Source: Telopea speciosissima | Lineage: Eukaryota; Streptophyta; Magnoliopsida; Proteales; Proteaceae | Assembly: GCF_018873765.1 (NCBI RefSeq) | Contig: NC_057925.1 | Coordinates: 57,362,970 to 57,426,969 of the forward strand | Direction of reading: 5' to 3' | Length of the DNA: 64,000 bases | In this document: positions 14,060 to 61,361 of the stretch, piece by piece | Layout of the letters: each line of letters opens with the position of its first letter | Position numbering within the stretch: position 1 is the stretch's first letter | The notes under the pieces: model-generated | The model's database searches: none | What the model saw: only the letters and a program-made list of their open reading frames with translations | Told to the model about the DNA's origin: nothing | Made by a program: the position numbers and the translations under genes

Positions 14060-15039
14060 AAGAGGGATTTTTAATTTCACTGTGAACGGTAAATTCATGT
14101 GGTCCTGTGCCTAGGAGCAGGAACTACACGACTGGTTAGCATTCTTTTTCCCAAAAAAGAGCAAGTGACCGCTGTCTGGTTGTGTAGTGCCTGAGAAGAG
14201 AGTGAGGAAGATGAGGGCTTCCCCGTTCAACCAGAAAAGTAGTCCTGTGTTGGGCAGAGTTGGATCAAGAGATGGTAAAGATGGTACAGTGGTTAATACA
14301 ACTTACTATGCCTCATGAGCCTCTATTTAAAAAGAAAACAGAGATGTTAATGTTCACCCAAGTAGGTGAACTTTGTAGATACTATGTTATGTCCTCATTC
14401 TACTCCCCTCTGCATACTGAACTATGCAAGTTAGTTTGAGCAATGGATATTAATGTTAATGAATTTAGAATATGAAGATTGAAGGTCCTTGTAAGCATCA
14501 AAGGGTTTATTGATTTGCCATCATTCTCATGAAGCTACATCAACAAACATGCATGGTTGGGTCCATGTGATAGAGGTCTCTACAGCTATCCCATTGATCA
14601 AAATTTAAAACGAAATTTGTCCAATTCCCTCTCTATGATGCACTGTCTTGCAGTGGACACAACCATCAAGAAATTTAACCATTTGAGAATTACAAGATAG
14701 ACACAAATTAAAGGCTAACCCACATTCCATTACTTTATTAAACATACACCATTTAGGATCCTGAGATGACTACGGATATAATCTGGAGTCATTTCTATGG
14801 TCGTATGGATTCATCTTCATGTTGTAAGTAGACCAGCCAATTCTTTTGCATGATCTTCTGTAAAGAGTTTGATCTATTCAAAGCATTACATCACTACATC
14901 TGCATATTAAAGCAATACAGCATATTATAATGACCCAAAAACATGTTAAAATTAACATTTAAATCCTATGAAGAGAGAGAGAGAGAGAGAGAGTCACCAA
15001 CTCTAGATGCAAGGCTGGCTAGATCCACGAGCTTTTCAT
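14060..15039. other. 3' flank of NLR-A, shared with other cluster members
   Basis: From about 14385 the sequence matches the 3' flanks of NLR-C (about 26080-26390), NLR-E (about 49025-49360) and NLR-F (about 57890-58090). Shared landmarks are TGGGTCCATGTGATAGAGG and CAATTTGAGAATT. It includes the second UTR exon of NLR-A and a minus-strand AATAAA (about 14735-14740) that could be its poly(A) signal. 14060-14380 holds nothing recognisable. Confidence 0.6.
14900..14997 (-). other. Predicted 3'-UTR intron of NLR-A
   Basis: On the minus strand GTTG|GTGACTCTCTC starts a 98-bp stretch that opens with a (CT)n run and ends TTTAATATGCAG. Layout and both boundaries align with the same stretch after the stop of NLR-B, -D, -E and -F. 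The donor is weaker here (GTGACT) than in NLR-E (GTAAGT). Confidence 0.5.
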
Positions 15040-17463
15040 TTAGTGGTCATCAGGGATCATCTCCCCTGTAGATGTGAACCATTTGCGTTCATATTCGGTT
15101 AACTGTTCTTCAGGTATGATTTCTTCTTCTTCCCTTGTATTGATGGAATGTACATGTTTGATCTTCTCCCAATCTTTTCCACCTTCTTTAACCCTCTCAA
15201 GGAACTCCTTTGGCATAGCCAATGTAAGTTTCTGTAGTGTTGTGATGTGTCTCAGCCCACCGGGGATCCATTTTAACCTATCAAAGCCTCTAATTTCCAG
15301 TATCATCAGATTAGGCATTGCTCCTTCCTCCACTATCCAATACCTTAGCCAATCAAACTCTTGGAGGGACAAACTCTCGAGTTTAGAAAACCCCCCTGCA
15401 TGGCATTTCATTACAACTCCATCGTATGTAAACCGATATAATGAATGGTCCTTTAATTGGGACAGCTTCTCGAGTGTAACCATCATGTCTTCTTTTAGAT
15501 GTGTGCCACCCAATCGCAACCTTGCGAGATTCGGAGGGAAGTTATGAAGTTCAGGTAGCTTTTGTATGTGTCCACAGATGGAGAGATCATAGAGATACAC
15601 ATGGCTCGAAAGTGACGGGAAAAAAATTTCACCACTTCCAAATTCTATCAAGACTATGACCTCAAGGCGCACCAAATTGACTAGGGCCCGGGACAATGCC
15701 TCTCTGAATTTTTCCATTGCAGTCCCAATTATCCACAAATCCCTGAGACCGGTCAACATTTCGAGACCATTCTCAATCCAATCACCTGTTGGAAGGACTA
15801 GTGTTTGGAGATCACTTAGATCATGAATGTGTCTATGAGGAGAAGGCCGTCGATAAATCCCAATACCACTCCTAACAATGGAGTCATTAAATGCCTTCAT
15901 CTTGTTTCTGCCATCAAATACAAGATGCCTTAATTTACGCAATTTTAATATTTCAATGGGGAGAGATTCAATCTCGGTACCGTACAGATCGAGAGTTAGG
16001 TTATACAAGTTGCCAACCCAAGGTGGAAGAGTTTCCAAGCCAGTATCACGTAAGCTCAAGTACTTGAGAAAAATGAGCTTTCCTGTTTCCTTGAGTAAGC
16101 TTTTAATACCTGGAGCACCCTCTAGATCCAACACATTAAGTAGTTTGAACTCTCCATAAAGAGACGGGGACACTTCAGTGAAGCAGAGCAATGAGCGGAG
16201 AAGGTTTATAGAAGAACTCATGGAGGTGGAGGAACGGTAAGATGCCTCCTGATCAGCCATATTTTCTTCATCACACTTATCTTGGAGGGCTTCACGACGA
16301 TAACAATTCAAGGACTTCTGAGAATTGAAAACGTTAAGAAAGTTACCTTCCTTGGCTTCGGATATTGCCAAGTTCAAGAGGAGATCATGAATTATAAATG
16401 ATCGAGGTACCCCATTTGGTTTCCACGTCGCAACTTGAATCAGGTTCCTCTGCATCAGCTCCTCAAGGCATTCTCCGCCCACATCTTCCATTCTTAAATT
16501 CCCCCTTGGTTCCAGAAATCCCTCTGCAACCCACAGCCGAATCAATCTGTCCCTATCGATCTCAGTATCTTCTGGAAAAACCCCAAAATAAAGAAATAAA
16601 GGCTTCAAGTGACTAGGTAATTCGGAGTAACTCAAAGCCAGTACCTTTTGACAGTCACTCGAGTACTCTAGATGCCAGTTCACACTGTCGAGCATTTTCT
16701 TCCATTCAGCAAGAGTAGTATTTAGCCTTTTATCCGATAGAAGACCTCCCAATACCATAATAGCTAGTGGTAATCCATCACATTTCCTGACAATATCCAT
16801 TGCCAGATGTTTCATCTCATTAATTGTTGAGACTGTTGAAACGTGCTACTGCCTCTGTGTCATCTGTGGATCGGGAGAACACCTTCGAGAAAAGCTTTAA
16901 ACTATTCTCTTCATCCAAAAGTTGAAGCTTGAATGGATTAGGAGCAATCGGATCGGCATGGCGAGCTACACCTTCATCACGAGTTGTGAGCAACACCCTG
17001 CACTGCTGATTGTTGCATGGAACCGGGAAGGAGTTTTTCAATTTATCCCAATCTTCTTTATTCCATACATCGTCCAATAGGAAGAGATAATTCTTCTTCT
17101 CTTGGAGAAAATCGGAAAGCTTTTCCTCCAAAATTCCAGCCTCCTGTAGCGCCAATGCCTTTTTCTCTGTGTCTGTGAAAATCATAACTTGTTTTATCAT
17201 GTTGTACAAAACATCTTTCATTCTATATTCTTTTGATACATGGACACAAGCTTGACAAACAAAGTGTTTTTTCACATCATCTCTGTTGTAGATTTTTTGA
17301 GCGAGAGTAGTTTTCCCTAATCCACCCATACTCAGGCAGTCATCAGCCTGAGTTCCTTGTGGAGTGACTCCACTTCTGGCTTCACTTGTGAGAGATAATT
17401 AGCTTCATCTATTAGTAGGAAGCTTAGTTTCTGTATCAGAGGAAGGATCGCCATCTCAGCCAT
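15040..17463 (-). pseudogene. NLR-A: CNL pseudogene with internal deletion
   Basis: Read from 17463: an ATG and about 42 codons of the Rx-type coiled-coil N-terminus (LLIDEANYLSQVKPEVES) are followed at about 17340 by an abrupt jump to the P-loop (MGGLGKTTLAQK, 17329). About 160 codons present in NLR-B and -E are missing, and the two parts are out of frame. The NB-ARC runs to 16820, where four extra bases in the FNSLNN/DEMKHLAM region shift the frame. The second part (16815-15040, 591 codons) carries GLPLAIMVLGG, the MHD-type IIHDLLLNLAIS and the LRR domain, ending STGEMIPDDH. Kinase-2 (LFLLDDVWNKEDW) is intact, so decay looks recent. A translated product could at most be a 169-aa NB fragment or, by internal initiation, an ARC2-LRR fragment. 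Confidence 0.88.
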
Positions 17464-18194
17464 ATTTTCTCTTTTCTACTCGTCTCGAGAAAAATCAAAG
17501 CTTACTCACTCCCTTTTAGAGTTCAGAGCTTAAAATCCCAGGCATTCATTCCTCTAATTTTGTTTAATTAATAAGTATATAACAATATCTCGTTTGTTTG
17601 ACTTGGAATATTATACTTGTGAAGAACATTTTATTCAGCATCACTAGGAAGGAAACGACTTGGCTCCTGTTCCTGCAGTGGCGGGAGCTGGATCGTCCAG
17701 CCCAGTTAAACGACAGTAAAATCAAGAATTGGGTGGTCATTTCATAGATGGGTCCCACCTGGGTCACCCCACCCCCTGTTTTTAGGTGGTTTCCATGAGC
17801 TGAACGCTCCAGTTACAACCTTTCAATTTTATTGAGTTGGTGATGAGAACGTTATGGGGATTTTTTATTTGTTAATTTGACAAGTTCGAGATGGTCATGA
17901 AAACGGTGTGGGGATTTTATTTGTTAATTTGTCTTTTTCTGAAATATTGTATTTCTTTATGCTTGAGAGCTTGACACGTGGATTGGTGTGACATTCAACG
18001 GTGTCAAAATCGAGAAGAAAGAGAAAAAAATAAATAAAAAACTTGGTCAATCAATCTAACACCGTTGGATGAAGCATTACCTATGTGTCGAGCTCTCAAG
18101 CCCGCACTGCAATGTACTACTAGATTGGTGCAATGCAGAGGATTTTAATCTAGATTCCTGTACGTTTCCTATAGATCTCAAGGACCAGGATCCT
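17464..18194. other. 5' flank of NLR-A
   Basis: Starts with the leader shared by the cluster (minus strand AGAAAAGAGAAAATATGGC before the ATG). The stretch at about 17825-17990 matches the NLR-C 5' flank near 32100-32180. No other gene. The small frame at 17564-17767 is unsupported. Confidence 0.55.
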
Positions 18195-18315
18195 CTGTAG
18201 TATCGGCGGGGCAGCGGTGCGCATCCGATGGTACAGCAGAGGCCAGGTGGCACACATGGCACATATGGTCTCTGCTGTGCCATCGGATGTGCATCGCCAC
18301 TCCGCCAATACTGCA
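18195..18315. mobile_element. Foldback MITE (about 120 bp)
   Basis: The left arm GTAGTATCGGCGGGGCAGCG continues GCGCATCCGATGGTACAGCA. It pairs with the right arm TGCTGTGCCATCGGATGTGC and CGCCACTCCGCCAATACTGC. Arms of about 50 bp enclose a short centre. Open frames crossing the element on the minus strand are artefacts. Confidence 0.75.
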
Positions 18316-20745: not shown

Positions 20746-21336
20746 GTGAATCGTATTAGCCACCAATCTAAACTATGGATCAGAGTGATAACATTGAAGT
20801 GAAAACAGAAAGTTGCCTATTATTTAAGCAAGGATGTGCTTCCAAAACTTACAACAATATATAATCTTGTTTTAATTAGAAACTCAAACTAATTTTCTCC
20901 AAGCCCCATTTTACTTGAGGCTTATATGACCATTGAAATCAAAGTAATCTGCAAGAGTTCTAACAGAAAATTGTGGGAGGTGTTAAAAGGATCACAATTT
21001 ATTTCATGGAAGCAACAAAACATACAACGAACAATATTTTTTGGATTCAAGACTTTGCAAATAGATTCAGAACCACAACATTAAACGTCTCAATAAGAAA
21101 CAAACATTCATGAAATCGAAATCACATTACCTTTAATAAAGATACACTAATATTTGACAATACTATGAGCTAATATCTTAAAAAAGACTTGGAAATATTA
21201 TAGGATCCTGAGATGACCCAACTTAAGGAATTAACTTGTTAATTACTGGGAGATTATATATTTGGAGTCATTTCTACGGCCATATGGATTCATCTTCATG
21301 AGAGTTTGATCTCTTCAAAGCAATACATCACTTCGT
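20746..21336. other. 3' flank of NLR-B
   Basis: About 20990-21300 is homologous to the 3' flanks of NLR-D (36236-36560), NLR-E (49400-49870) and NLR-F (60960-61240); shared landmarks are ATAGATTCA, AACCACAACAT and GGAGTCATTTCTA. Contains the predicted second UTR exon of NLR-B. No separate gene. Confidence 0.55.
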
Positions 21337-21438
21337 CTGCATGTCAAAGCAATACATCACATTATACTGACTCTCAAACTTATTAAAATTGATATTTAAC
21401 TCCAAAAAGAGAGATAGAGAGAGGATATCAAATCTCAC
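21337..21438 (-). other. Predicted 3'-UTR intron of NLR-B
   Basis: Minus strand GAGTTG|GTGAGATTTG at the donor, a CT-rich run just inside, and a TTTGACATGCAG acceptor; 102 bp. The boundaries align with the same region in NLR-A, -D, -E and -F. Confidence 0.55.
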
Positions 21439-21485
21439 CAACTCTAGATGCGAGCTAGGCTGGTTAGATCCACGAGCTTTTTCAT

Positions 21486-24383
21486 TTAGTGGTCATCATC
21501 AGGGATCATCTCCCCTGTAGCTGTGAACCATTTGCGTTCATATTTAGTAAACTGTTCTTCAGTTCTGTGTCCTTCTACTTCCCGTGTATTGATGGAAGGT
21601 ACATGTTTGATCTTCTCCCAATGTTTTTCACCTTCTTCAACCCTCTCAAGGAATTCCTTTGGCATAGCCAATGTAAGTTTTTGTAGTGTTGTGATGTGCC
21701 TCAGCCCACCGGGAATCCATTTTAACCCAAAAAGATCTTTAATTTCCAATATGCTCAGATTAGGCATTGCTCCTTCCTCCACTATCCAATACCTTAGCCA
21801 ATCAAACTGTACGAAGCACAAACTCTCGAGTTTAGAAAACCCTCCTGCATAGCATTTCATCACAACTCCATCGTATGTAGACCATAATGAGAGGTCCTTT
21901 AATTGGGGCAGCTTCTCGAGCATCCTCATCATGTCTTCTTTTAGATGCGTGTTAGACAATTGCAACGTTGCGAGATTCGGAGGGAAGTTGTGAAGGTCAG
22001 GTAGCTTTTGTATGCGACCATAAATGTAGAGATAATGGAGATACACATGGTTCGAAAGTGAAGGGAAAATTGTTTTGCCATTTCTAAAGTCTGATAAGTT
22101 TAGGGCCTCAAGGCGCACCAAATTGACTAGGGCCTGGGACAATTTCTCTCTGAATTTCTCCATGTCAACTCCAAGTATCCTCAAATCCCTGAGACCGGTC
22201 AACTTTTCGAGGCCATTCTCTATCCAATCACCTGAAGGAAGGAATAGTGTCTGGAGATCACTTAGATGGTGTACGTGTCTATGATGAGGAGAATGCTGTC
22301 GTCGATAAATCCCAATTATACCATTCCCAACAATGGAATCATTAAATGCCTGCTTCATTTTTATGCCATAGAATAGAAGATTCCTTAATTTACCCAATTT
22401 TAATATTTCAATGGGGAGAGATTCAATCTCGGTACCCACCACACTGAGAGTTTGTAGGTTATACAAGTTGCCAACCCAAGGTGGAAGAGTTTCCAAGCTG
22501 GTTCTACTCAAGTTCATGTACTTGAGAAAAATGAGCTTCCTTATTTCCTTGGGTAAACTTTTAATACCTGGGGCACCCTCTAGATCCAACACATTAAGTA
22601 GTTTGAACTGCCCATAAAGGGATGGGGACATTTCAATGAAGCAGAGCAATGAGCGGAGAAGCTGGTTTGAATTAGAACTCATGGAGGAGGAGAAATTGTA
22701 AGAAGCCTCCTCGGCCATATTATTTTCACCATGCTTATCTTGAAGGGCTACACGACGATAACAATTCAAGGACTCCTGAGGAGTGGAGATGATGTTAAGA
22801 AAGTTACTTTCCTTGGCTTCTGATATTGCCAAGTTCAAGAGGGGATCACGAATTATAAATGATTCAGGTACCCCATTTGATTTCCACTTCGCAACTTGAA
22901 TCAGATTCCTCTGCATCAGCTCCTCAAGGCATTCTCCGCCCACATCTTCCATTCTTAAATTCCCTCTTGGTTCTAGAAATCCCTCTGCACCCCATAGCTG
23001 AATCAATCTGTCCCTTCGCATCTCAGTATCTTCTGGAAAAACCCCAAAATAAAGAAATAAAGGCTTCAAATGACTAGGTAATTCAGAGTAACTCAAAGCC
23101 AATACCTTTTGACAGTTACTCGAGTCTAGATGCCACTTCACACTGTCGAGCACTTTCTTCCATTCAATAGGAGTAGTTAGCCTTTTATCCGATAGAAGAC
23201 CTCCCAATACCACAATAGCTAATGGTAATCCATCACATTTCTTAACAATATCCATTGCCAGATGTTTCATCTCCTTGTCGAGACTGTTGAGACGTGCTAC
23301 TGCCTCTGTGTCATCTGTGGATCGGAAGAACACTTTTGAGAAAAGCTTTAAACTATTCTCTTCATCCAAAAGTTGAAGCTTGAATGGATTAGGAGCAATG
23401 GGGTCGGCATGTCGGGCTACACCTTCATCACGAGTTGTAAGCAGCACCCTGCACTTCTGACTGTTGCATGGAACCGGGAAGGTATTTTTCAATTTATCCC
23501 AATCTTCTTTAGCCCATACATCGTCCAATAGGAAGAGATAATTCTTCTTCTCTTTGAGAAAATCGGAAAGCTTTTCCTCCAAAATTCCAGCCTCCTTTGA
23601 CGCCAATGCATCTTTCTCTGCTTCTGTGAGCACCATAACTTGTTTTATGATGTTGCACAAAACATCTTTCATTCTATATTCTTTTGATAATCGTACCCAA
23701 GCTTGACAAACAAAGTGTTTTTTCACATCATCTCTGTTGTAGATTTTTTGAGCGAGGGTGGTTTTACCCAATCCGCCCATTCCTATAACTGAGACAACAC
23801 CAAACCGTCCAAGGGGCTTCTCTTCCATCAGCAACTTTGCTAGTTCCTCTGCTTCGCTTTGTAACCCCACAACATCGACAGGCCTAAACTTTTGGGCACT
23901 CGAAGAAGCTTCAAGTTGATGATGATGCTGTGCTTGATGATCAGTTGTAGACCATGTTTGACCCCCTTGATCAACTACAGGCTTAGGCTTAATATCATAA
24001 TTAATTCTATCATCTTTCAGTTTCTTGATCTTTCCATTGATATCTTGGATCTTCCCTCTTAGCTGGTGAGCATTAATAACAAGTTTTGGAAACTTGGTGA
24101 TCTTCCCAACGATTTTGCGCCCCCGTTTCTTTGCCTCTTCATATACAAAGATGTCGATGGCATCTTCTACTTCGAAGGCCAATTCTTTGAGTTGTCTCAC
24201 CCACTCTTTCGCTGGCTCACTTTTGTGGTATATTGCATCTGCGTCCTTAAAAAAGGCTGTCATCAGCCTGAGTTCTTTGCGGAGTGACTCCACTTCTGGC
24301 TTCACTTGTGACAGATAATTAGCTTCATCTATTAGTAGGGAGCCTAGTTTTTGTATCAGAATAAGGATCACACTCACAGCCAT
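21486..24383 (-). CDS. NLR-B: intact CC-NB-ARC-LRR immune receptor (965 aa)
   Basis: Single-exon CNL of the RPP13/RPM1-like kind. An Rx-type coiled coil occupies about 1-150 with the EDVID-class motif as EDAID (73-77). The NB-ARC is about 175-520: P-loop GMGGLGKTTLAQK (Lys207), kinase-2 LFLLDDVW (about 281-288), RNBS-B CRVLLTTRDEG, GLPLAIVVLGG (about 383). Irregular leucine-rich repeats fill about 560-930 and the tail is STGEMIPDDDH. Such proteins are cytosolic or membrane-associated sensors that swap ADP for ATP and assemble resistosomes. Oddity: the MHD-type motif, IIHDLLLN in NLR-D/E style, reads IIRDPLLN here, replacing the ADP-sensing His by Arg512 and adding a Pro. His changes at this site can cause auto-activity or loss of function. 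The start is fixed by alignment with NLR-D/E. The effector recognised is unknown. Confidence 0.93.
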   Translation of the reverse strand: MAVSVILILIQKLGSLLIDEANYLSQVKPEVESLRKELRLMTAFFKDADAIYHKSEPAKEWVRQLKELAFEVEDAIDIFVYEEAKKRGRKIVGKITKFPKLVINAHQLRGKIQDINGKIKKLKDDRINYDIKPKPVVDQGGQTWSTTDHQAQHHHQLEASSSAQKFRPVDVVGLQSEAEELAKLLMEEKPLGRFGVVSVIGMGGLGKTTLAQKIYNRDDVKKHFVCQAWVRLSKEYRMKDVLCNIIKQVMVLTEAEKDALASKEAGILEEKLSDFLKEKKNYLFLLDDVWAKEDWDKLKNTFPVPCNSQKCRVLLTTRDEGVARHADPIAPNPFKLQLLDEENSLKLFSKVFFRSTDDTEAVARLNSLDKEMKHLAMDIVKKCDGLPLAIVVLGGLLSDKRLTTPIEWKKVLDSVKWHLDSSNCQKVLALSYSELPSHLKPLFLYFGVFPEDTEMRRDRLIQLWGAEGFLEPRGNLRMEDVGGECLEELMQRNLIQVAKWKSNGVPESFIIRDPLLNLAISEAKESNFLNIISTPQESLNCYRRVALQDKHGENNMAEEASYNFSSSMSSNSNQLLRSLLCFIEMSPSLYGQFKLLNVLDLEGAPGIKSLPKEIRKLIFLKYMNLSRTSLETLPPWVGNLYNLQTLSVVGTEIESLPIEILKLGKLRNLLFYGIKMKQAFNDSIVGNGIIGIYRRQHSPHHRHVHHLSDLQTLFLPSGDWIENGLEKLTGLRDLRILGVDMEKFREKLSQALVNLVRLEALNLSDFRNGKTIFPSLSNHVYLHYLYIYGRIQKLPDLHNFPPNLATLQLSNTHLKEDMMRMLEKLPQLKDLSLWSTYDGVVMKCYAGGFSKLESLCFVQFDWLRYWIVEEGAMPNLSILEIKDLFGLKWIPGGLRHITTLQKLTLAMPKEFLERVEEGEKHWEKIKHVPSINTREVEGHRTEEQFTKYERKWFTATGEMIPDDDH

Positions 24384-25855: not shown

Positions 25856-26012
25856 GGACTTTTATCTGCTGCTGTAACTGGAGCGCTGCTGTGCACATCA
25901 TGCGGTGCAGCAGCGGCCATGTGTGTGTACAGTGGGGCCTGCTGTGCACACATGGCCACTGTTGCACCGCATGATGCGCACAGCAGTGCTCCAGTTACAG
26001 CAGCAGACAAAA
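25856..26012. mobile_element. Foldback MITE, family shared with 55205-55317
   Basis: Long near-perfect arms: left TCTGCTGCTGTAACTGGAGC then GCTGCTGTGCACATCATGCG; right GCATGATGCGCACAGCAGTG then CTCCAGTTACAGCAGCAGA. The centre is CATGTGTGTGTACAGTGGG. A diverged relative lies at 55205-55317. High arm identity suggests recent insertion. Frames on both strands here are palindrome artefacts. Confidence 0.8.
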
Positions 26013-26497
26013 ATTCCCAACATTTTCTCCCAATGATTGTGCTTTCTTCCCTTTTGCTTCATTATAGATAATAAGCTATACTGAACTATGCAAGTTAGTT
26101 TGAGTAATGGATATGAATGTTAATGAATTTACAACATAAAAACTAAAGGTCTTGATAAGCATCACAGAGTTTATTGATTTGCCATCATTATCATGATGCT
26201 ATATCAACAAACATGCTTAGTTGGGTCCAAGTGATAGAGGTCTCTACACTTATCCCACGGATCAAATCTTAAAACAAAGTTTGTCGAATTCCCTCTCTAT
26301 ATGATGTATGTACGGTCATGCAGTGGACACAACCATCAAGAAATTTAACAATTTGAGAATTAAAAGATAGAGACACAAATTAAAGACTAGTGTACATAAC
26401 ATTTTTTTTTTTGGAGAGAGAGAGAGAGAGGATCCAAACTAGCTACCAACTCTAGATGCATATATGCAAGGTTGGCAAGATCCACGAGCTTTCCATT
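26013..26497. other. 3' flank of NLR-C
   Basis: 26080-26390 matches the NLR-A 3' flank at 14405-14710. A (GA)n run at about 26414-26430 follows the pseudogene on its 3' side. The predicted second UTR exon found beside NLR-A, -B, -D and -E is missing, apparently lost at a T-run junction near 26401-26412. Confidence 0.55.
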
Positions 26498-36155: not shown

Positions 36156-36600
36156 AGTTTGTTTATTAATTTTTTTTAATGCAATCATGCCACCTGACCT
36201 TTAGGATTTTTCTGGGCTGGGCTTAGCACAAATTGTGATACAAATAATTCAATGGAAGCAACACAAATACTACCAACAATATTGTTTGGACTCAAGGCCT
36301 TACAAATAGATTCAAAACCACCAACATAAAAACATCCCAATAAGACAGACATTCATAAAATCAAAATTCCCTTATTTTATCAAAACCATATGACACTACT
36401 ATGAGCAAATATTTTAAAAACACCAGGAAATATAAGATAGTGACATGACCCAATTTGAGAAATAACTTATTTATTTCTAGGAAATAATCTGGAATCATTC
36501 CCACGACCAAATGGGATCCATCTTCATGTTGAAGCAGATCAACCACTTCTTTTGCATCTGTAAAGAGTTAGATCTCTTCAAAGCAATGAAATCACTACTT
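36156..36600. other. 3' flank of NLR-D
   Basis: From about 36236 the sequence is homologous to the 3' flanks of NLR-B, -E and -F. It holds the predicted second UTR exon of NLR-D; the minus strand in that exon reads AAAGAAGTGGTTGATCTGC. Confidence 0.55.
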
Positions 36601-36682
36601 CTGCACATCAAAGCAATAAATCACATTAGAATGTCCATCAGACTTATTTAATCACCCAGAGAGAGAGAGAGAGAGAACTCAC
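36601..36682 (-). other. Predicted 3'-UTR intron of NLR-D
   Basis: Minus strand GAATCTC|GTGAGTTCTC at the donor, then a pure (CT)n run, and a TTTGATGTGCAG acceptor. At 82 bp it is the shortest of the set. Confidence 0.55.
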
Positions 36683-36697: not shown

Positions 36698-39550
36698 TCA
36701 ACATGAGGGATTATCTCCCCGGTAGATGTCAACCCATTGGCGTTCATATCCAGGAAGGTGTTGGGATATCTCTATTGGGATTTCTTTTTCCCTTGTATTG
36801 ATGGAAGGTACATGTTTGATCTTCTCCCAATCGTCTCCACCTTCTTTAACCCTCTCAAGGAACTCCTTTGGCATAGCCAATGTAAGTTTCTGCAGTTTTG
36901 TGACATGCCTCAGCCCATTGGGAATCCCTTTTAACCCATAAAGCTCATTCATTTCCAATATCCTCAGATTAGGCAGTGCTCCTTCCTCCACTATCCAATT
37001 CCTTAGACAATGAAACTCATGGAGAGTCAAATCCTCTAGTTTAGGAAACCCTCTTGCAGAGCATTTCATCACTACTCCATCATATGGTTGCTTATCCAAT
37101 GTGAGTTCCTTCAATTTGGGCAGCTTCTCAAGTATCACAATCATGTCTTCTTCTAAACGAGTGTTAGCCAAACGCAACCTCGTGAGATTCGGTGGGAAGT
37201 TGTTGAACTCTGGTAGCTTCCGTATGCATCCGCCAATGTAGAGATCATAGAGATACACATGGTTTGAAAATGAAGGGAAAAATATTTCAGTGCCTCCTAA
37301 TTCTAACAAGAATAGCACCTCAAGGCGCACCAATTTGACAATGGCTTGAGATAATGCCTCTCTGAAGTTCTCTAGGTGTCCTTCATACCCACCTATTCTC
37401 AAGTCCCTGAGATCTGTCAACATTTCGAGGCCATCTTCTATCCAATCGCCTGGTCGAAGCCATAGTGTCTGAAGATGACTTAGTTCCCCAAGCTGTCTCT
37501 GTCTAGGAGGAGAAGAGCATCGACAAATCTCAATAGCTTTCTTAACAATGGAATCATCAGATCTCCACTTTGGAATTCTTCTATAGCATAGAAGATGCCT
37601 CAACTTCTCCAATTTTAAGATTTCAATTGGGAGATATTCATCAATTCTGGTACCAAAAAGATTGAGAGTTTGCAGGTTATACAAGTTGCCAACCCAAGGT
37701 GGAAGAGTTTTCAAGCCGGTTCCACGGAAGCTCAAGTATTTGAGAAAAATGAGCTTTCCTATTTCCTTGGGTAAGGTTTTAATACCTGGGGCATCCTCAA
37801 GATCCAATACATTAAGTAGTTTGAACTCTCTGTAAAGAGACGGGTTCATTTCAGTGAAGCAGAGCAAGGTGCGGAGAAGATTTGAAGAATTTATGGAGGA
37901 AGAATGGTTAGGAGACTGAGCCATATTATCTTCACTAGACTTATCACGGAGGGCTACACGACGATAGCAATTCAAGGACTTTTGAGGAGTGGAGATGTTA
38001 AGAAAGTTACTTTCCTTAGCTTCTGATATTGCTAACTTCAAGAGGAGATCATGAATAATAAATGATTGAGGTACCCCATTTGATTTCCACTTGGCAACAT
38101 GAATCAAGTTCCTCTGCATCAGCTCTTCAAGGCAATCTCCAGCTACATCTTCCATTCTTAAATTCCCTCTTGGTTCCAGAAATCCCTCTGCAACCCATAG
38201 CCGAATCAATTTGTCCCTCTCGATCTCAGCATCATTCGGGAAAAACCCAAAATAAAGAAAACAAGACTTCAAGTGAGAAGGTAATTCGGTATAACTCAGA
38301 CTTAATACCTTTAGACAGTTACTCGTGTCTAAATGCCAATCCACACTGTCGAGTACTTTCTTCCATTCAGCAATAGTAGTCAACCTTTTTTCCAATAAAA
38401 GGCCTCCCAATACCACAATGGCTAGCGGTAATCCATCACATTTTTGAACAATATCTGTTGCCAGTTTTTTCATCTCCTTGTTGAGACTATTGAGACTTGA
38501 TTCTGCGTCTGCATCATTTGGCGATCGGAAGAACACCTTTGAGAAAAGTTTTAAACTCTTCTTTTCATCTAAATGTTTAAGCTTGTATGGATCAGCATTC
38601 GGGTCGGCATGCCGGGCTATTCCTTCATCACGAGTTGTCAGCAACACTCTGCATTGTTGACCGTCACATGGAACGAGGAAGGTGTTTTTCAGTTTATCCC
38701 AATCTTCTCTGCTCCATACATCGTCCAATAAGAAGAGAGAATTCTTCTTCTCTTTGAGAAAATTAGAAAGCCTTTCCTCCAAAATTACAACCTCCTTTGA
38801 TGCCAATTCCTCTCTCTCTGCTTCTGTGAGCACCATAACTTGTTTTATGATGTTGTACAGAACATCTTTCATTCTATATTCTTTTGATATATGAACCCAG
38901 GCTTGACAATCAAAGTGCCTTTTCACATCATCTCTGTCGTAGATTTTTCGAGCAAGGGTGGTTTTTCCCAATCCTCCCATGCCGGTAATTGAGACAACAC
39001 TGAACCGTCCAAGGGACTCCTTTTTCATCAGCAACTTCGCTAGCTTCTCTGCTTCGCTTTGTAATCCCACAACATCGACCGGCCAAAATTTTTGTGCACT
39101 CGAAGAAACTTCAAGTTGATGTGTTTGAGTAAATGTTTGACCCCTCTCTAGAGGCTTGATATCATAATTCATTTGGTCATCTTTCAGCTTTGTGATCTTT
39201 CCATTGATGTCTTGGATCTTCCCTCTAAACTGGTGAGCATTAATAAGAAGTTTTGGGAACTTGATGATCTTCCGAACCACACCGCCCCGCCATCTCTGCA
39301 CCACTTCGTATACAAAGACTTCGATGGTGTCTTCTGCTTCGAAGGCCAACTCTCTGAGTTGTCTCACCCACTCTTTTGCCCGCTCGCTTTTGTGGTATAT
39401 TGCATCTGCGTCCTTCAGAGAGGCAGTCATCAGCTTGAGTTCTTTGTGGAGTAACTCTACTTCTGGCCTCACTTGTAAGAGAGAATTGGCTTCATCATTT
39501 AGTAGAGAGCCTAAATTCTGTATCAAAGGGAGGATCACCATCTCAGCCAT
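36698..39550 (-). CDS. NLR-D: intact CC-NB-ARC-LRR immune receptor (950 aa)
   Basis: Uninterrupted single-exon CNL. The coiled coil (about 1-140) has the EDVID-class motif as EDTIE in FEAEDTIEVFVYE. The NB-ARC contains GMGGLGKTTLARK (P-loop Lys196), SLFLLDDVWSREDW (kinase-2), CRVLLTTRDEG, GLPLAIVVLGGLL and a canonical MHD-class IIHDLLLKLAIS. The LRR half starts near LLRTLLCFTEMNPS and ends with HVPSINTREKEIP. The tail is IYRGDNPSC rather than the TGEMIPDDDH of NLR-B/E, and it has several lineage-specific replacements (GIARHADPNADPYK), so it is an older branch closest to NLR-F. All nucleotide-binding signatures are intact, so it is likely functional. Its ligand or guarded protein cannot be inferred. 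Confidence 0.94.
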   Translation of the reverse strand: MAEMVILPLIQNLGSLLNDEANSLLQVRPEVELLHKELKLMTASLKDADAIYHKSERAKEWVRQLRELAFEAEDTIEVFVYEVVQRWRGGVVRKIIKFPKLLINAHQFRGKIQDINGKITKLKDDQMNYDIKPLERGQTFTQTHQLEVSSSAQKFWPVDVVGLQSEAEKLAKLLMKKESLGRFSVVSITGMGGLGKTTLARKIYDRDDVKRHFDCQAWVHISKEYRMKDVLYNIIKQVMVLTEAEREELASKEVVILEERLSNFLKEKKNSLFLLDDVWSREDWDKLKNTFLVPCDGQQCRVLLTTRDEGIARHADPNADPYKLKHLDEKKSLKLFSKVFFRSPNDADAESSLNSLNKEMKKLATDIVQKCDGLPLAIVVLGGLLLEKRLTTIAEWKKVLDSVDWHLDTSNCLKVLSLSYTELPSHLKSCFLYFGFFPNDAEIERDKLIRLWVAEGFLEPRGNLRMEDVAGDCLEELMQRNLIHVAKWKSNGVPQSFIIHDLLLKLAISEAKESNFLNISTPQKSLNCYRRVALRDKSSEDNMAQSPNHSSSINSSNLLRTLLCFTEMNPSLYREFKLLNVLDLEDAPGIKTLPKEIGKLIFLKYLSFRGTGLKTLPPWVGNLYNLQTLNLFGTRIDEYLPIEILKLEKLRHLLCYRRIPKWRSDDSIVKKAIEICRCSSPPRQRQLGELSHLQTLWLRPGDWIEDGLEMLTDLRDLRIGGYEGHLENFREALSQAIVKLVRLEVLFLLELGGTEIFFPSFSNHVYLYDLYIGGCIRKLPEFNNFPPNLTRLRLANTRLEEDMIVILEKLPKLKELTLDKQPYDGVVMKCSARGFPKLEDLTLHEFHCLRNWIVEEGALPNLRILEMNELYGLKGIPNGLRHVTKLQKLTLAMPKEFLERVKEGGDDWEKIKHVPSINTREKEIPIEISQHLPGYERQWVDIYRGDNPSC

Positions 39551-47700: not shown

Positions 47701-47703
47701 TGG

Positions 47704-48859: not shown

Positions 48860-49922
48860 TGATGGGTAGTGGGGTTGTTTCCCTTCTGCTGCTTTCACAC
48901 GTAGAGAGAGAAAAATAGAGAAAGAAAGAAAGAAAGAGAGAAGGACAGAAAGATGTGTGAAGAACAAGGTTTGATGAGAAAAATGGTGAAGTATAATGCT
49001 TTATAAATACTAGGCTATGACCTCAGTCTACTCTCCTCTGCGTATTGAATTATACAAGCTAGTTTTAGCAATTGCCATTTTATATATGTTAGTGAATTTT
49101 TCTTTTGGGTAGAAATATATGTTAGTGAATTTACAATAAGCAAATTAATTAAGAATTCCTGATAAGCATCATATGGTATTTTGATTTGCCACCATTGTCA
49201 TGATGCTAAATCAACAAACATGGTTGGGTCCAATTTTAAAACAAAGTTTCTCCAATTCCCTCTCTACGATGCACTGTCATGCAATGGACACAATTAACCA
49301 GCAATAAATTTAACAATTTGAGAATTAAAAAATAGACACAAATTAAAGGCCAAGTGTACATAGCATTTTTTTTTTTGGGGGGGGGGGTGTTGTTGGTGTT
49401 AAAGGATCACAATTTATTTCACTAGAAGCAACAAAAAATACAACAAACAATATTTTTTTGTACTATAGACTTTGCAAATAGATTCAAAACCACAACATAA
49501 AACGTCTCTATAAGAAACAGAAATTCATGAAATCGAAACTCCATTACTTTATTAATCACACACCATTAATTTGACAATACCATGAGCTAATATTTAAAAA
49601 ATAAATAAAAAAAAAAAAACCTGGAAATATAGGATCCTGACATGAGTACATGACCCAATTTTGGAGTTCAGCTCTGCTACCCACATGGGGGACGGGTGGG
49701 GGGGGACAGATCTGACCCCTCCATGGGGCATGGGTCCCACACCGATCCGGATTCATTTGAGAAATTAACTTGTTTATTACTGGGATATTATACACCTGGA
49801 GTCATTTCTAGGATCATATGGATATTCATCTTCATGATGTTGAAGAAGTAGATCAGCCAATTCTTTTGCATGATCTTCTTCTCTAAAGAGTTTGATCTCT
49901 TCAAATCAGTACATCACATCGT
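48860..49922. other. Flank between the VQ relic and NLR-E
   Basis: 48880-48960 is a pyrimidine-rich leader-like tract on the minus strand, fitting a 5' UTR of the VQ gene. 49025-49360 and 49400-49870 match the 3' flanks of other NLRs. 49870-49922 is the predicted second UTR exon of NLR-E. Confidence 0.55.
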
Positions 49923-49997
49923 CTGCATATCAAAGCAATTTATACATCACATTATAATCACCCAAAAACTTGTTAAAATTGACATTTAACTCCTACG

Positions 49998-50036
<39 letters not shown>

Positions 50037-50046
50037 CAAAACTTAC
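49923..50046 (-). other. Predicted 3'-UTR intron of NLR-E
   Basis: Minus strand GAGAGTTGCTG|GTAAGTTTTG is a strong donor. The intron opens with a long (CT)n tract (49998-50035) and ends TTTGATATGCAG; 124 bp. It lies 45 bp after the stop codon. This is the clearest member of the conserved set. Confidence 0.65.
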
Positions 50047-50091: not shown

Positions 50092-53004
50092 TTAGTGGTC
50101 ATCATCAGGGATCATTTCCCCTGTAGATGCGAAGCATTCGCGTTCATATTCAGTATTGCGTCCTTGAACTTCTCTTGTATGGATGGAAGGTACATGTTTG
50201 ATGATCTCCCAATCTTTTCCAACTTCCTTAACCCTCTCAAGGAACTCCTTTGGCATAGCCAATATAAGATTCTGTAGTGTTGTGATGTGCCTCAGCCCAC
50301 TAGGAATCCATTTTAACCCAAAAAGGCGATTCACTTCCAATATCCTCAGATTAGGCATTGCTCCTTCCTCTACTATCCAATCCCTTAGCCAATCAAACCC
50401 TTTGAGAACCAAACTCTCAAGTTTAGAAAAACCCCCTGCATAGCATTTCATCACAACTCCATCGTATGTAGACCAATTTAATTTGAGATCCTTTAATTGG
50501 GTCAGCTTCTCGAGTGTCCCCATCATGTCTTCTTTTAGAAGTGTACTAGACAATTGCAACCTTACGAGATTCGGAGGGAAGCTGTGCAGGTCAGGTAGCT
50601 TTTTTATGCGTCCAAAAATGGAGAGATCATAGAGATACACATGGTTCGAAAGTGAAGGGAAAAATGTTTCACCACTTCCAAATTCTGCTAAGTGTAGGAC
50701 CTCAAGGCGCACCAATTTGACTAGGGCCTGAGACAATGCCTGTCTGAATTTCTCCATGTCATTTCCAATTATCATCAAATCCCTGAGACCTGTCAACATT
50801 TCTAGACCATTCTCTATCCAATCACCTGTTGGAAGGATTAGTGTCTGGAGATCACTTAGATGGTGGATGTGTCTATTACGATGAGGAAAAGGCCGTCGTC
50901 GACAAATTTGACTACCACTCCTAACATTAATGGAGTACTCAATAAATGCTTGCTTCATGTTTGTGTTATAGAATAGAAGATGCCTTAGTTTACCCAATTT
51001 TAATATTTCAATGGGGAGATATTCAATCTTGGTACCGTACAAATCGAGAGTCTGTAGGCTATACAAGTTGCCAACCCAAGGTGGAAGAGTTTCCAAGCTG
51101 GTTCCACTTAAGTTCAAGTACTTGAGAAAAATGAGCTTCCCTATTTCCTTGGGTAAGCTTTTAATACCTGTGGCACCCTTTAGATCCAACACATTAAGTA
51201 GTTTGAACTGTCCATAAAGAGACAGTTGGGGCATTTGAGTGAAGCAAATCAATGAGCGGAGAAGGTTAATTGAAGAAGAACTGATCATGGAGGTGGTGGA
51301 GGAATTGTAAGATGCCTCCTGATCATGATCAGCCATATTATCTTCATCACCACGCTTATCTTGGAGGGCTATACGACGATGATAACTATTCAAGGACTTG
51401 TCAGGATTGGAAATGTTAAGAAGAAAGTTACCTTCCTTGGCTTCTGATATTGCCAAGTTCAAGAGGAGATCATGAATTATAAATGATTGAGGTACCCCAT
51501 TTGGTTTCCACTTTGTAACTTGAATCAGGTTCCTCTGCATCAGCTCCTCAAGGCATTCTCCACCTACATCTTCCATTCTTAAATTCCCTCTTGGTTCCAG
51601 GAATCCCTCTGCAACCCATAGCCGAATCAATCTCTCCCTATCGATCTCAGTATATTCTGGAAAAATCCCAAAATAAAGAAATAAAGGCTTCAAATGACTA
51701 GGTAATTCGGAGTAACTCAAAGCCAATACCTTTTGACAGTTACTCGAGTACTGTAGATGCCAGTTCACACTGTCCAACACTTTCTTCCATTCAGCAGCAG
51801 TAGTTAGCCTTTTGTCCGATAGAAGACCTCCCAATACCACAATAGCTAGTGGTAATCGATCACATTTCTTAACAATATCTATTGCTACATTTCTCATCTC
51901 GTTGTCATCGAGACTGTTGAGACGTGCTACTGCCTCTGTGTCATCTGTGGATCGGAAGAACACCTTAGAGAAAAGCTTTAAACTATTCTCTTCATCCAAA
52001 TGTTGAAGCTTGTATGGATTAGGAGCAATCGGGTCGGCATGCCGGGCTACACCTTCATTACGAGTTGTAAGCGACACCCTGCACTGCTGACTCTCGCATG
52101 GATCCGGGAAGGTGCTCTTCAATGTATCCCAATCTTCTTTAGTCCATACATCGTCCAATAGGAAGAGGTAATTCTTCCTCTCTTTGAGAAAATTAGAAAG
52201 CCTTTCCTTCAAAATTCCAGCTTCCTTTGAGGCTAATGCCTCTTTCTCTTCTTCTGTGAGCACCATAACTTGTTTTATGATGTTGTACAAAACATCTTTC
52301 ATTTGATATTCTTTTGAGATTCGAACACAAGCTTGACAGACAAAGTGTTTTTTAACATCATCTCTGTTGTAGATTTTTTGAGCCAGGGTGGTTTTACCCA
52401 AACCGCCCATACCTGTAATTGAGACGACACCAAATCGTCCAAGGGGCTTCTCTTCCATCAGCAACTTCGCTACCTCCTCTGCTTCCCTTTGTAACCCCAC
52501 AACATCCACAGGCCGAAACTTTTGGGCAATCGAAGAAGCTTCAAGTTGATGATGATGTGCTTGATGATCAGTTGTAGACCATGTTTGACCCCCTTGATCA
52601 ACTAGAGGCTTAATATCATAATTAATTCTATCATCTTTCAGCTTCTTCATCTTTCCATTGATATCTTGGATCTTCCCTCTTAGCTTGTGAGCATTAATTA
52701 GAAGTTTTGGGAATTTGGTGATCTTCGCAATGATTTTGCCCCGCCGTTTCTTCGCCTCTTCATATACAAAGATGTCGATGGCATCTTCGGCTTCGAAGGC
52801 CAATTCTTTGAGTTGTCTCACCCACTCTTTAGCTGGTTCACTTTTGTGGTATATTGCATCTGCGTCCTTGAGAAAGGCAGTGATCAGCCTGAGTTCTTTG
52901 CGGAGTGACTCTACTTCTGGCTTCACTTGTGACAGATAATTAGCTTCATCTATTAGTAAGGAGCCTAGTTTTTGTATCAAAGGGGAGATCACAGTCTCAG
53001 CCAT
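50092..53004 (-). CDS. NLR-E: intact CC-NB-ARC-LRR immune receptor (970 aa)
   Basis: Uninterrupted CNL, the longest of the cluster and very close to NLR-B. The coiled coil (about 1-150) has FEAEDAIDIFVYEE. The NB-ARC has GMGGLGKTTLAQK (P-loop Lys204), YLFLLDDVWTKEDW, an RNBS-B changed to CRVSLTTRNEG (usually LLTTRDEG), LPLAIVVLGGLL preceded by DR in place of the usual DG, and a canonical IIHDLLLNLAIS (His511, Asp512). The LRR domain starts near INLLRSLICFTQ and ends SIHTREVQGR. The tail is STGEMIPDDDH. The conserved switch residues suggest a functional receptor. Its 5' flank duplicates that of NLR-D, although the protein is closer to NLR-B, so gene and flank histories may differ, for example by gene conversion. 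Confidence 0.94.
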   Translation of the reverse strand: MAETVISPLIQKLGSLLIDEANYLSQVKPEVESLRKELRLITAFLKDADAIYHKSEPAKEWVRQLKELAFEAEDAIDIFVYEEAKKRRGKIIAKITKFPKLLINAHKLRGKIQDINGKMKKLKDDRINYDIKPLVDQGGQTWSTTDHQAHHHQLEASSIAQKFRPVDVVGLQREAEEVAKLLMEEKPLGRFGVVSITGMGGLGKTTLAQKIYNRDDVKKHFVCQACVRISKEYQMKDVLYNIIKQVMVLTEEEKEALASKEAGILKERLSNFLKERKNYLFLLDDVWTKEDWDTLKSTFPDPCESQQCRVSLTTRNEGVARHADPIAPNPYKLQHLDEENSLKLFSKVFFRSTDDTEAVARLNSLDDNEMRNVAIDIVKKCDRLPLAIVVLGGLLSDKRLTTAAEWKKVLDSVNWHLQYSSNCQKVLALSYSELPSHLKPLFLYFGIFPEYTEIDRERLIRLWVAEGFLEPRGNLRMEDVGGECLEELMQRNLIQVTKWKPNGVPQSFIIHDLLLNLAISEAKEGNFLLNISNPDKSLNSYHRRIALQDKRGDEDNMADHDQEASYNSSTTSMISSSSINLLRSLICFTQMPQLSLYGQFKLLNVLDLKGATGIKSLPKEIGKLIFLKYLNLSGTSLETLPPWVGNLYSLQTLDLYGTKIEYLPIEILKLGKLRHLLFYNTNMKQAFIEYSINVRSGSQICRRRPFPHRNRHIHHLSDLQTLILPTGDWIENGLEMLTGLRDLMIIGNDMEKFRQALSQALVKLVRLEVLHLAEFGSGETFFPSLSNHVYLYDLSIFGRIKKLPDLHSFPPNLVRLQLSSTLLKEDMMGTLEKLTQLKDLKLNWSTYDGVVMKCYAGGFSKLESLVLKGFDWLRDWIVEEGAMPNLRILEVNRLFGLKWIPSGLRHITTLQNLILAMPKEFLERVKEVGKDWEIIKHVPSIHTREVQGRNTEYERECFASTGEMIPDDDH

Positions 53005-58300: not shown

Positions 58301-58555
58301 ACCTGGAAATATAGTTTTCTGACTTGACCCAACTTGAGAAATTAACTTGTTTATTTATGGGATATGATCTGGAGTCATTCTCCTCTCACAATCATTTAGA
58401 TTCATCCACATGTTTGAAGTAGATCATCCACTTCTTTTGCATCTTCATGTCTGCATGCACATCAAAGCAATATTACAAAGAATTCAAAAGACACATACCC
58501 ATGAAATATTTTGGTACGAATATCCATGAAATATTCAACACGTACATGAAACTAA
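55318..58555. other. Distal NLR-E flank, then a first copy of the NLR-F 3' flank
   Basis: To about 57290 it follows the NLR-D flank (43080-43950 corresponds to 56240-57290). 57890-58470 then matches the NLR-F 3' flank at 60830-61270, including the CACATCAAAGCAATATTAC stretch beside the UTR-intron acceptor. It therefore appears to be a stray NLR 3' end without its gene. No coding gene is supported before the protease. Confidence 0.6.
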
Positions 58556-59896
58556 TTAATGCTTGGAGCAATCCGCTGGCTTGAAATAAACCTTTCTTTT
58601 TTCCAGATCATGGCCAACCAAGAAATCCATTTGAGCCATGTTTCCGAAGATACCCACATCATCAACACTTGGGTAAGGGACAATGGCAAAGCATATAGCT
58701 TCTTTAGAATTCCGAAAAAAAGTATTCAGGGGTTTCAACTTGACGTCGGCACCACCGGAAAAATGGAAAGTGACTGAAACATTGACATCAGTACCAGGTT
58801 CGTAGCACAAGCGTAAAAATGGAGGGTCTACAAAACTTTCACCATGAATCAATTTCTTCACTTCTGATTCAAGATTAAGGTAGAAATTAGATTCGATAAA
58901 TGTCAATGTTGTACCAGAATCGAGGATAATGTTTCCCTCTTCAGCAACAGCCTTGGATGAATTCTTGTATGGCAATCTCTTGTTTCCGACACTAATTGCT
59001 TCAAGGGTCACATAATAGAATGTAACCGGATCCTTTCTCACTAACGGAGTGGAGACGACATCATCACCCGAAACGACAGCTTCACTACCAAAATTCAATT
59101 TGCTTGTCACATTTTCCTTCTCAAAAGGGACCAAGCAGTAGGAGAACTTGCCACCAATAGATGATTTCAGTTGCGAAATCAGTGATAGCGAACCCCCTCC
59201 GAGGCCAACTAGACCACTTTCTCCCTCATCGTAGGTGCCTTGGTTATTGTGTCCACAACCAAAGATTTTCTCAAGTAAGGTGACTGACTTGCCACTAGTG
59301 GAACTCAATGTGAATGTCTCAGTAGCAAGAAACCCTCTAGTGGATGATCCGTCCCCATAATAATTGTTGTACTCACAATCATTAGTTTTAGGTGCACATA
59401 CTCTAAGTTTACTATCTAGCAAATCACATTCTTTTGATTTGCATGATAAGTTTCGATAAGTTGATGACTTGTTAGGATCAAATAGAGGAACTTTTTGATT
59501 GTAACATCTTTCGCAAGGTTTGCATTGAATCCAAATAACATTACTACCTGTATCAGCAATTGCGAACCTCTCCACTGGTGGAGTTCCAAATGACATTTTC
59601 ATGAGATAAGAACCACTATTATCAGACACAACCTGCGACGAAACATCAAATGGGGAGATTGCGAACTGTTTTAAACTATTGGCACGGGACATTGAACGGC
59701 GCAACGCATTCTGTAGACGCTCAAAATGAGTCACCGATGGATCATAGAATGGAGAGAGCAATGAATCCCGGTGGATAATATCGACACTGAACCCACCATT
59801 ATCCCCAGCTTCCACTAGGGAAAATGTTGAAAGGTAAATAGAGAAGACTATGACTAGAGCAGGTACGGATGAACATGAACTAAAAGAAGCAACCAT
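58556..59896 (-). CDS. CDR1-like aspartic protease (446 aa)
   Basis: Intronless A1B (nepenthesin/CDR1-type) aspartic protease. Signal peptide about 1-30; propeptide with FSVDIIHRDS and RLQNALRRSMSRA, as in CDR1. The first catalytic motif is ADTGSNVIWIQC (Asp115; DTGSN where DTGSD is usual), followed by the cysteine-rich nepenthesin insert (CKPCERCYNQ to CEY). The flap Tyr is in NYYGDGSST (about 180), then FGCGHNNQG. The second catalytic motif is ILDSGTTLTF (Asp326), and the C-terminus is GIFGNMAQMDFLVGHDLEKR. Arabidopsis CDR1 (437 aa) is a secreted protease that promotes salicylate-dependent disease resistance, so an apoplastic defence role is reasonable but inferred. The length fits the family and no break was seen. 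Its upstream side is a minisatellite that begins within about 25-45 bp of the ATG. Confidence 0.93.
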   Translation of the reverse strand: MVASFSSCSSVPALVIVFSIYLSTFSLVEAGDNGGFSVDIIHRDSLLSPFYDPSVTHFERLQNALRRSMSRANSLKQFAISPFDVSSQVVSDNSGSYLMKMSFGTPPVERFAIADTGSNVIWIQCKPCERCYNQKVPLFDPNKSSTYRNLSCKSKECDLLDSKLRVCAPKTNDCEYNNYYGDGSSTRGFLATETFTLSSTSGKSVTLLEKIFGCGHNNQGTYDEGESGLVGLGGGSLSLISQLKSSIGGKFSYCLVPFEKENVTSKLNFGSEAVVSGDDVVSTPLVRKDPVTFYYVTLEAISVGNKRLPYKNSSKAVAEEGNIILDSGTTLTFIESNFYLNLESEVKKLIHGESFVDPPFLRLCYEPGTDVNVSVTFHFSGGADVKLKPLNTFFRNSKEAICFAIVPYPSVDDVGIFGNMAQMDFLVGHDLEKRKVYFKPADCSKH

Positions 59897-59919
59897 GATT
59901 CTATAAAGTGTAGAGAGAA

Positions 59920-60562
59920 TAGAAGAGGTTACAATAAATATATGGAAGTTATAGAAGAAAGACTAGAAGACGTTACAAGATTAAATATATGGAAGTCACA
60001 GAAGAGAGACTAGAAGACGTTACAAGAAATAAATGTGAGCAGAGAAACTGGAAGACGTTACAAATTTAAATATATGGAAGTTACAGCTAGAAAAGAGACT
60101 AGAAGACGTTACAAGATTAAATATGTGGAAGTTACAGAAGAGAGATTACAAGACGTTAACGTTACAAGAAATAAATGTGAGCAGAGAGACTAGAAGACGT
60201 TACAAGTTTAAATATATGGAAGTTACAGCTAGAAAAGAGACTAGAAGACGTTACAAGATTAAATATGTGGAAGTTACAGAAGAGAGATTACAAGACGTTA
60301 ACGTTACAAGAAATAAATGTGAACAGAGAGACTAGAAGACGTTACAAGATTAAATATGTGGAAGTTACAGAAGAGAGATTACAAGACGTTAACGTTACAA
60401 GAAATAAATGTGAGCAGAGAGACTAGAAGACGTTACAAGTTTAAATATATGGAAGTTACAGCTAGAAGAGAGACTAGAAGATGTTACAAGATTAAATATA
60501 TAGAAGTTACAGAAGAGAGACTACAAAACGTTACAAGAAATACATGTGAGCAGAGAGACGTT
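59920..60562. repeat. Minisatellite upstream of the protease gene, rich in GACGTTAC
   Basis: About 640 bp of units built from AGAAGACGTTACAAG, TTTAAATATATGGAAGTTAC and AAATAAATGTGAGCAGAGAG. The basic period is about 45-50 bp, with a higher-order period of 142 bp (starts at 60057 and 60199) plus one 91-bp step. About a dozen GACGTT words (ACGT core) occur. The array covers the region from about -25 to about -665 relative to the protease start codon, so the proximal promoter must lie in or be made of it. Two 70-codon open frames on the plus strand follow the repeat period and are not genes. Confidence 0.88.
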
Positions 60563-61253
60563 ACTTAGGATCTTCAAGTGTATAAACTTTGGGACTCCAT
60601 CAGGTCTGCAATGTGGCAGGGTACCAAAATGGCCCATGCTACAAGATTTTACCATATACTCTCTCTCTCTCTCTCATATGTTGGGTCACTAGATGTTTTG
60701 TTTTTGTATTTGATATTTTGATTATTACAACAAGACGTACACAAAGGATTTTTGAAGGGAGGATGGAGAAAGAATCTAGAGTGGATGGAGAAACTGGTGT
60801 GAACATGCATATATCCCTGGTTTCAATGCAGTCTTTTGTAATGAACTCGAAGCATAAATAAATTTAACAATTTGAGAATTTTAAAAGATAAACACAAATT
60901 AATGGCAAGTGCATGTAGTGGGTTTTTTTTTTTTTTTTTTGTGTGTGGAGGGGTGGGGTGGTTAAAGGATCACAAGTTATTTCATTGGAAGCAACAACAA
61001 AATGACAAATACTACTAGCCACATTGTAGGATTCAAGATTTTTAAAATATATTCGAAACCACAACATAAACCATCCCAATATACTTTTTTAAACATATAC
61101 CATTAGGCAATACTATGAATGAATATTTTAAAAGACCTGAGAAATTAACTTGTTTATTTATGGGGTATGATCTGGAGTCATTCCCCTCTCACAACCAAAT
61201 GGATTCATCTTCATGTTTGAAGTAAATCACCCACTTCTTTTGCATCTTCATGT
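60563..61253. other. 3' flank of NLR-F
   Basis: 60830-61253 matches 58010-58470 on the other side of the protease gene and, more distantly, the 3' flanks of NLR-B, -D and -E. It includes the predicted second UTR exon of NLR-F. A (CT)n run is at 60660-60674. No gene. Confidence 0.55.
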
Positions 61254-61361
61254 CTGCACATCAAAGCAATATTACATCACATTATAATTTCCCTCAGACT
61301 TGTTAAAATTAACATATTTAACTTGAGAGAGAGAAAGAGAGAGAGGATCAACAGTACTCAC
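61254..61361 (-). other. Predicted 3'-UTR intron of NLR-F
   Basis: Minus strand AGAATCT|GTGAGTACTG at the donor, CT-rich just inside, TTTGATGTGCAG at the acceptor; 108 bp. Same position relative to the stop as in the other copies. Confidence 0.55.

Follow-up and report, generated by a model that had tools for sequence, protein, structure and literature searches.

Tandem CC-NLR genes of a plant array share a predicted small intron just past the stop codon

Results

The window analyzed here, a stretch of 64,000 nt at C10:57362970-57426969 of an 823-Mb plant genome, contains a minus-strand array of CC-NLR genes (NLR-A to NLR-F), and the element in question is a small predicted intron in the 3' untranslated region (3' UTR) of these genes, just past the stop codon. 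CC-NLR coding frames were located on the minus strand for NLR-B (21486..24383, 965 aa), NLR-D (36698..39550, 950 aa), NLR-E (50092..53004, 970 aa), and NLR-F (61404..64000, 927 aa, extending beyond the window end). The array continues beyond the window with a seventh tandem gene, copy G, whose frame is whole and which carries this intron too. Single open coding frames of 924 to 970 aa are present in NLR-B, -D, -E, -F, and -G, and Rx_N, NB-ARC, winged-helix, and LRR domains were found in NLR-B, -D, and -E. NLR-A is broken: its open reading frame comprises 601 aa, the next piece lies in a different frame, and the N-terminal ∼200 aa are without a match. NLR-C is likewise broken (a pseudogene).

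An earlier note on this DNA had proposed that a 3'-UTR intron is kept in five of six tandem NLRs. All five intervals start with GT and end with AG at the exact coordinates on the minus strand, are 82 to 124 nt long, have a TGCAG acceptor, and carry the donors that had been read from the letters. The predicted introns (all on the minus strand) measure 102 nt in NLR-B (21337..21438, GTGAGA...TGCAG, 47 nt past the stop), 82 nt in NLR-D (36601..36682, GTGAGT...TGCAG, 15 nt past the stop), 124 nt in NLR-E (49923..50046, GTAAGT...TGCAG, 45 nt past the stop, with the longest CT run), and 108 nt in NLR-F (61254..61361, GTGAGT...TGCAG, 42 nt past the stop). In the broken NLR-A, a 98-nt predicted intron (14900..14997) starts with the weakened donor GTGACT, 42 nt past the stop. 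The proposed layout therefore stood and the count was revised: copy G also has a predicted intron (92 nt, donor GTGAGT, 42 nt past the stop), and only NLR-B, -D, -E, and -F are whole-frame genes among the five interval copies, because NLR-A is broken.

The same arrangement was found outside the array. A pseudogene on C11 has a 115-nt predicted intron with donor GTGAGT and acceptor TCCAG, 45 nt past the stop, and a split relic on C8 retains the intron end and exon 2 ∼10.5 kb away from the coding end. Since the layout is present on C11 and partly on C8, it is older than the array. A processed copy lacking the intron, which would prove splicing, was not among the 15 matches of a genome DNA search that scored only its best candidates. 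In NLR-C, a remnant at 26413..26446 on the minus strand consists of a decayed, donor-like GTAGCT and a CT tract, without acceptor, exon 2, or the poly(A)-like module described below. The second exon had been reported as lost from this copy, which we can confirm and extend to the acceptor; the CT tract directly abuts sequence that NLR-E and NLR-F have on the far side of the poly(A)-like module.

Stop-to-donor distances were below 50 nt throughout, at 15 to 47 nt in NLR-A, -B, -D, -E, -F, and -G and 45 nt in the C11 pseudogene. In NLR-C, 50 nt separate the aligned TAA from the donor-like GT, and the donor is decayed. The short distance of 15 nt in NLR-D arises because this copy lacks ∼31 nt of exon present in NLR-A, -F, and -G and because its shifted frame stops at a TGA that shortly precedes the TAA of the other copies; the donor was retained although exon sequence was lost. 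The donor of NLR-E does lie near the limit for nonsense-mediated decay (NMD), as had been pointed out, yet every usable donor stays under ∼50 nt.

Agreement among all five intervals does not amount to five independent events, because the copies share ancestry. Independent support comes from other NLR genes, whose 3' ends were collected elsewhere in the genome (68 genes, of which 14 unreliable and 3 near-duplicate ones were removed, leaving 51). The strong donor motif GTRAGT occurred within 50 nt past the stop in 9 of these 51 ends, whereas the 50-nt bins farther downstream contained it in 3 of 255 cases (Fisher P = 8e-6). An antisense control for GTRAGT in the same six bins yielded 0, 1, 1, 1, 0, and 1 matches. 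When the comparison was restricted to ends collected once the idea had been formed, the counts were 5/36 and 2/180 (P = 0.0016). A strong donor just past the stop is thus a feature of about one in five sampled NLR ends, not of most. Donor, acceptor, and next exon are conserved in a pair of NLR paralogues on C2 and in a trio on C3; in an NLR pair on C9, the donor region aligns well and the acceptor region does not.

To compare rates of change, parsimony counts were set against four-fold degenerate sites of the five whole-frame genes, which had undergone 92 changes at 174 sites. The 3' half of the intron, minus its last five bases, showed 22 changes at 48 sites, and exon 2 showed 17 changes at 33 sites (15 to 17 depending on the tree); in neither case did the proportion of variable sites differ significantly from that of four-fold sites (Fisher P = 0.62 and 1.0, respectively). 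With NLR-D left out, the changes per sites were 17/42 for UTR exon 1, 17/56 for the intron, 11/33 for exon 2, and 73/174 for four-fold sites. Nine splice-core positions (donor +1, +2, +4, and +5 and the TGCAG) were invariant in the five whole-frame copies, whereas 17 of 48 other sites in the intron 3' half varied (hypergeometric P = 0.03, for sites picked after inspection). Pairwise distances ranged from 0.12 to 0.26 in the intron 3' half and from 0.17 to 0.46 at synonymous sites (dS). Strong constraint inside the intron, as hinted at by these pairwise distances, was not upheld by the parsimony counts against four-fold sites. There may be weak constraint on the intron, because pairwise dS exceeds intron divergence. 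Donors are weakened or decayed in the broken copies NLR-A and NLR-C.

Conservation of words in the second exon, another claim of the earlier note, held in part: AAGAGATCAAACTC is exact in NLR-B and NLR-E, one base off in NLR-A and NLR-D, and absent from NLR-F. The block 3' of the acceptor runs into a module resembling a poly(A) site in NLR-B, -D, -E, -F, and the C11 pseudogene (the sites being predicted); no match to it was found in NLR-A or NLR-C. Predicted terminal exons, up to the module, span 20975..21336 in NLR-B (module 20975-21160), 36240..36600 in NLR-D (module 36240-36367), 49395..49922 in NLR-E (module 49395-49577), and 60957..61253 in NLR-F (module 60957-61081), all on the minus strand. 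With poly(A) sites as predicted, the spliced distance from stop to poly(A) signal would be 373 nt in NLR-B, 359 nt in NLR-D, 541 nt in NLR-E, and 306 nt in NLR-F. The predicted terminal exon of NLR-E contains a GC-rich insertion (∼49660-49765, minus strand) that lengthens its 3' UTR and is without counterpart in the other copies.

A word of ∼17 nt resembling GTGATGTATTGCTTTGA flanks the acceptor on both sides as a short direct repeat in NLR-A, -B, -D, -E, and -G and in the C11 and C8 copies (within 14900-14960, 21310-21380, 36580-36640, and 49900-49970 on the minus strand); the second unit is missing in NLR-F. An origin of the intron from this direct repeat was considered, and no link of the repeat to splicing emerged.

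The CT-rich run had been described as lying within the first 40 intron bases. This applies to NLR-A, -B, -D, and -F, where the longest pyrimidine run occupies intron positions 5-28, 25-35, 6-25, and 15-37, respectively, and fails for NLR-E, where it occupies positions 12-50. Run lengths were 24 nt in NLR-A, 11 nt in NLR-B, 20 nt in NLR-D, 39 nt in NLR-E, 23 nt in NLR-F, 14 nt in copy G, 18 nt in the C11 pseudogene, and 9 nt in the C8 relic. We also considered the tract as a conserved element: it recurs in G, C11, and C8, yet its length changes. Although old, the run has not kept its length.

The window contains other features as well. An aspartic protease gene with TAXi domains (58556-59962) lies next to NLR-F. 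Starting 78 nt past its stop is a second copy (83% identity) of the NLR-F intron end, exon 2, and poly(A)-like module (58010-58477 versus 60825-61276, both on the minus strand). The protease 3' UTR matches distant protease paralogues on the same chromosome over ∼80 nt and then changes to NLR sequence; therefore, the gene appears to have been inserted, with a duplicated NLR 3' end flanking it. Directly upstream of the protease gene, self-matches of 76 to 88% identity resemble tandem repeats (59912-60559). A receptor-like kinase frame of 818 aa, in which LRR and protein kinase domains were found, adjoins the array at 7349-9805 on the plus strand, a 274-aa zf-RVT frame at 35085-35909 (plus strand) is probably a retroelement-derived piece, and a GC-rich stretch resembling a palindrome, located downstream of NLR-C (∼25880-26010), is possibly a miniature inverted-repeat transposable element.

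Discussion

The genes of this array appear to end in an ordinary small spliceosomal 3'-UTR intron that predates the duplications by which the array was made and that does not turn the normal message into a target of intron-based NMD; we put the probability of this reading at roughly 0.85. GT-AG boundaries, a common layout, and strong donors with TGCAG acceptors 15 to 47 nt past the stop are present in the sequence of each whole-frame copy. If the intron is spliced, it would leave an exon junction complex ∼20 to 25 nt upstream of the junction, presumably within reach of the terminating ribosome. A complex that the terminating ribosome can reach would not make the normal message an intron-based NMD target. 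The array would exemplify a broader pattern, in this genome and in other plants, by which NLR genes tend to have an intron just past the stop. The CT run would be a tolerated microsatellite in an intron rich in T and would aid intron recognition weakly at best.

Stop-proximal introns are not special to this array but are an ordinary feature of a kind that has already been described. The closest counterpart is wheat TdRGA-7Ba, a CC-NBS-LRR gene whose 103-bp 3'-UTR intron lies 27 bp past the stop according to cDNA and rapid amplification of cDNA ends (RACE) (PMC3759862). TdRGA-7Ba is from a monocot, also has a coding intron, and is proven by transcripts, whereas the array introns are predicted from sequence; its description, as far as it concerns this intron, mentions no CT run (PMC3759862). 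In Arabidopsis, RACE detected 3'-UTR introns in 7 of 81 NBS-LRR and related genes (PMC2175511); they are of the same kind as the array introns, although the comparison is one without stop distances in that part of the survey (PMC2175511). In citrus, 3'-UTR introns tend to sit near the stop, and 41 (8.74%) of the genes having them are resistance genes; this survey is a genome-wide annotation, and its authors considered that NMD might be provoked by a position close to the stop, which runs counter to the distance rule discussed below (PMC7247714). The functional wheat NLRs Sr21 (PMC5882135) and YrAS2388R (PMC6731223) also have spliced 3' UTRs, with 2 to 4 introns in that of Sr21 (PMC5882135) and a duplicated 3' UTR, reminiscent of the NLR-F neighborhood, in YrAS2388R (PMC6731223). 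They differ in having longer 3' UTRs, several introns, and alternative forms (PMC5882135, PMC6731223). In the study of barley Rdg2a, a 70-bp 3'-UTR intron is reported for a truncated paralogue, and the passage concerned gives no stop distance (PMC2937021).

Several observations weigh against the reading as an ordinary intron, the splicing of which is predicted from sequence. Outside the splice core, intron and exon 2 change at about the pace of four-fold sites. When the donor motif was relaxed to GTRAG, 11 of 51 NLR ends matched in the first 60 nt compared to a shuffle mean of 3.8, and the maximum among 500 approximate shuffles was also 11; one antisense bin reached 8. The C11 pseudogene still has a good donor, and therefore donor loss is not tied to every broken frame. 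In copy G, the poly(A)-like module is reduced to 45 nt, and the 3' end of this copy is therefore uncertain.

Should the NLR messages be NMD targets, the length of the 3' UTR would be a likelier reason than the intron. Under this alternative, which we consider unlikely, decay would be elicited by a spliced 3' UTR of more than ∼300 nt, a length exceeded by the stop-to-signal distances predicted for NLR-B, -D, -E, and -F. 3' UTRs of >300 nt have been named as a feature of plant NMD targets (PMC3284524); the distances here, however, depend on predicted poly(A) sites, and the same source reports no convincing enrichment of such 3' UTRs among the NMD-affected genes that it covers (PMC3284524).

A different role would be that of a tripwire for premature stops. 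The intron would be silent at the normal stop and lie >50 nt past any earlier one, exposing truncated NLR messages to NMD. This follows from the intron positions together with the published distance rule (PMC3711448), it fits the single open frames of NLR-B, -D, -E, -F, and -G, and the array does contain broken copies, NLR-A and NLR-C. The same effect, however, would be a by-product of any intron at that place, and the tripwire role strikes us as doubtful. Equally doubtful is the proposition that such a tripwire may be held by selection in fast-duplicating, intron-poor CC-NLR arrays in which truncated receptors are harmful. The tripwire idea was not stated in the titles or abstract openings of the six papers listed by a literature search aimed at it.

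That the interval matters as a place of alternative polyadenylation or splicing altering the 3' UTR seems quite unlikely, although precedents exist: Arabidopsis RPP7 has poly(A) sites in a terminal 3'-UTR intron under the control of FPA (PMC8116057), and more than one splice form of the 3' UTR, indeed several, is described for Sr21 (PMC5882135).

It is very unlikely that there is no intron at all and that a CT microsatellite with its flanks, copied by gene duplication and bearing chance GT and AG dinucleotides, is read through as plain 3' UTR. Most of the interval does change at nearly the four-fold rate, and shared ancestry accounts for part of the agreement among copies. Against this, the splice core is invariant in five whole-frame copies with pairwise dS of up to 0.46, strong donors are enriched just past NLR stops elsewhere in the genome, and introns of the same kind have been published, for example, in PMC3759862.

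RM190 is located near the leader-intron donor of rice Waxy. Like the run in the array, this (CT)n repeat is variable and belongs to a gene in which splice-donor variation matters; it differs in that RM190 is treated as a linked marker to which no functional role is assigned, and a donor single-nucleotide polymorphism is given as the cause (PMC3904453).

In plant reporters, 3'-UTR introns caused no NMD at 20 nt past the stop and strong NMD at 90 nt, with the effect rising with distance beyond 50 nt (PMC3711448). The introns that act in SMG7 and Barentsz, which resemble those of the array in being in the 3' UTR, lie >50 nt past the stop, in contrast to 15 to 47 nt here (PMC3711448). The earlier note had suggested a dosage switch in which splicing leaves an exon junction complex past the stop, NLR messages decay, and the CT tract sets splicing efficiency. 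NLR messages are known to be NMD controlled (PMC8116057, citing Gloggnitzer 2014), the citrus authors raise the possibility of NMD being triggered by a 3'-UTR intron close to the stop (PMC7247714), and NLR-E (45 nt) and NLR-B (47 nt) come close to the limit, but this switch is extremely improbable and we reject it because all measured donors lie <50 nt past the stop and plant reporters require more (PMC3711448), NLR-D has moved farther from the limit, and CT length varies among copies without anything found to follow it or to support a tuner. What survives of the earlier interpretation is the shared 3'-UTR intron, damaged in NLR-C, as seen in the sequence; dosage control through NMD tuned by the CT tract does not. 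Regulation of another kind may exist.

For this NLR array, the analysis provides better 3' gene ends. It also cautions that the distance has to be measured before an intron after a stop is read as an NMD switch. The tripwire, if real, would account for the crowding of strong donors within 50 nt past NLR stops and would serve as a quality-control device in a gene family that is among the fastest changing in plants.

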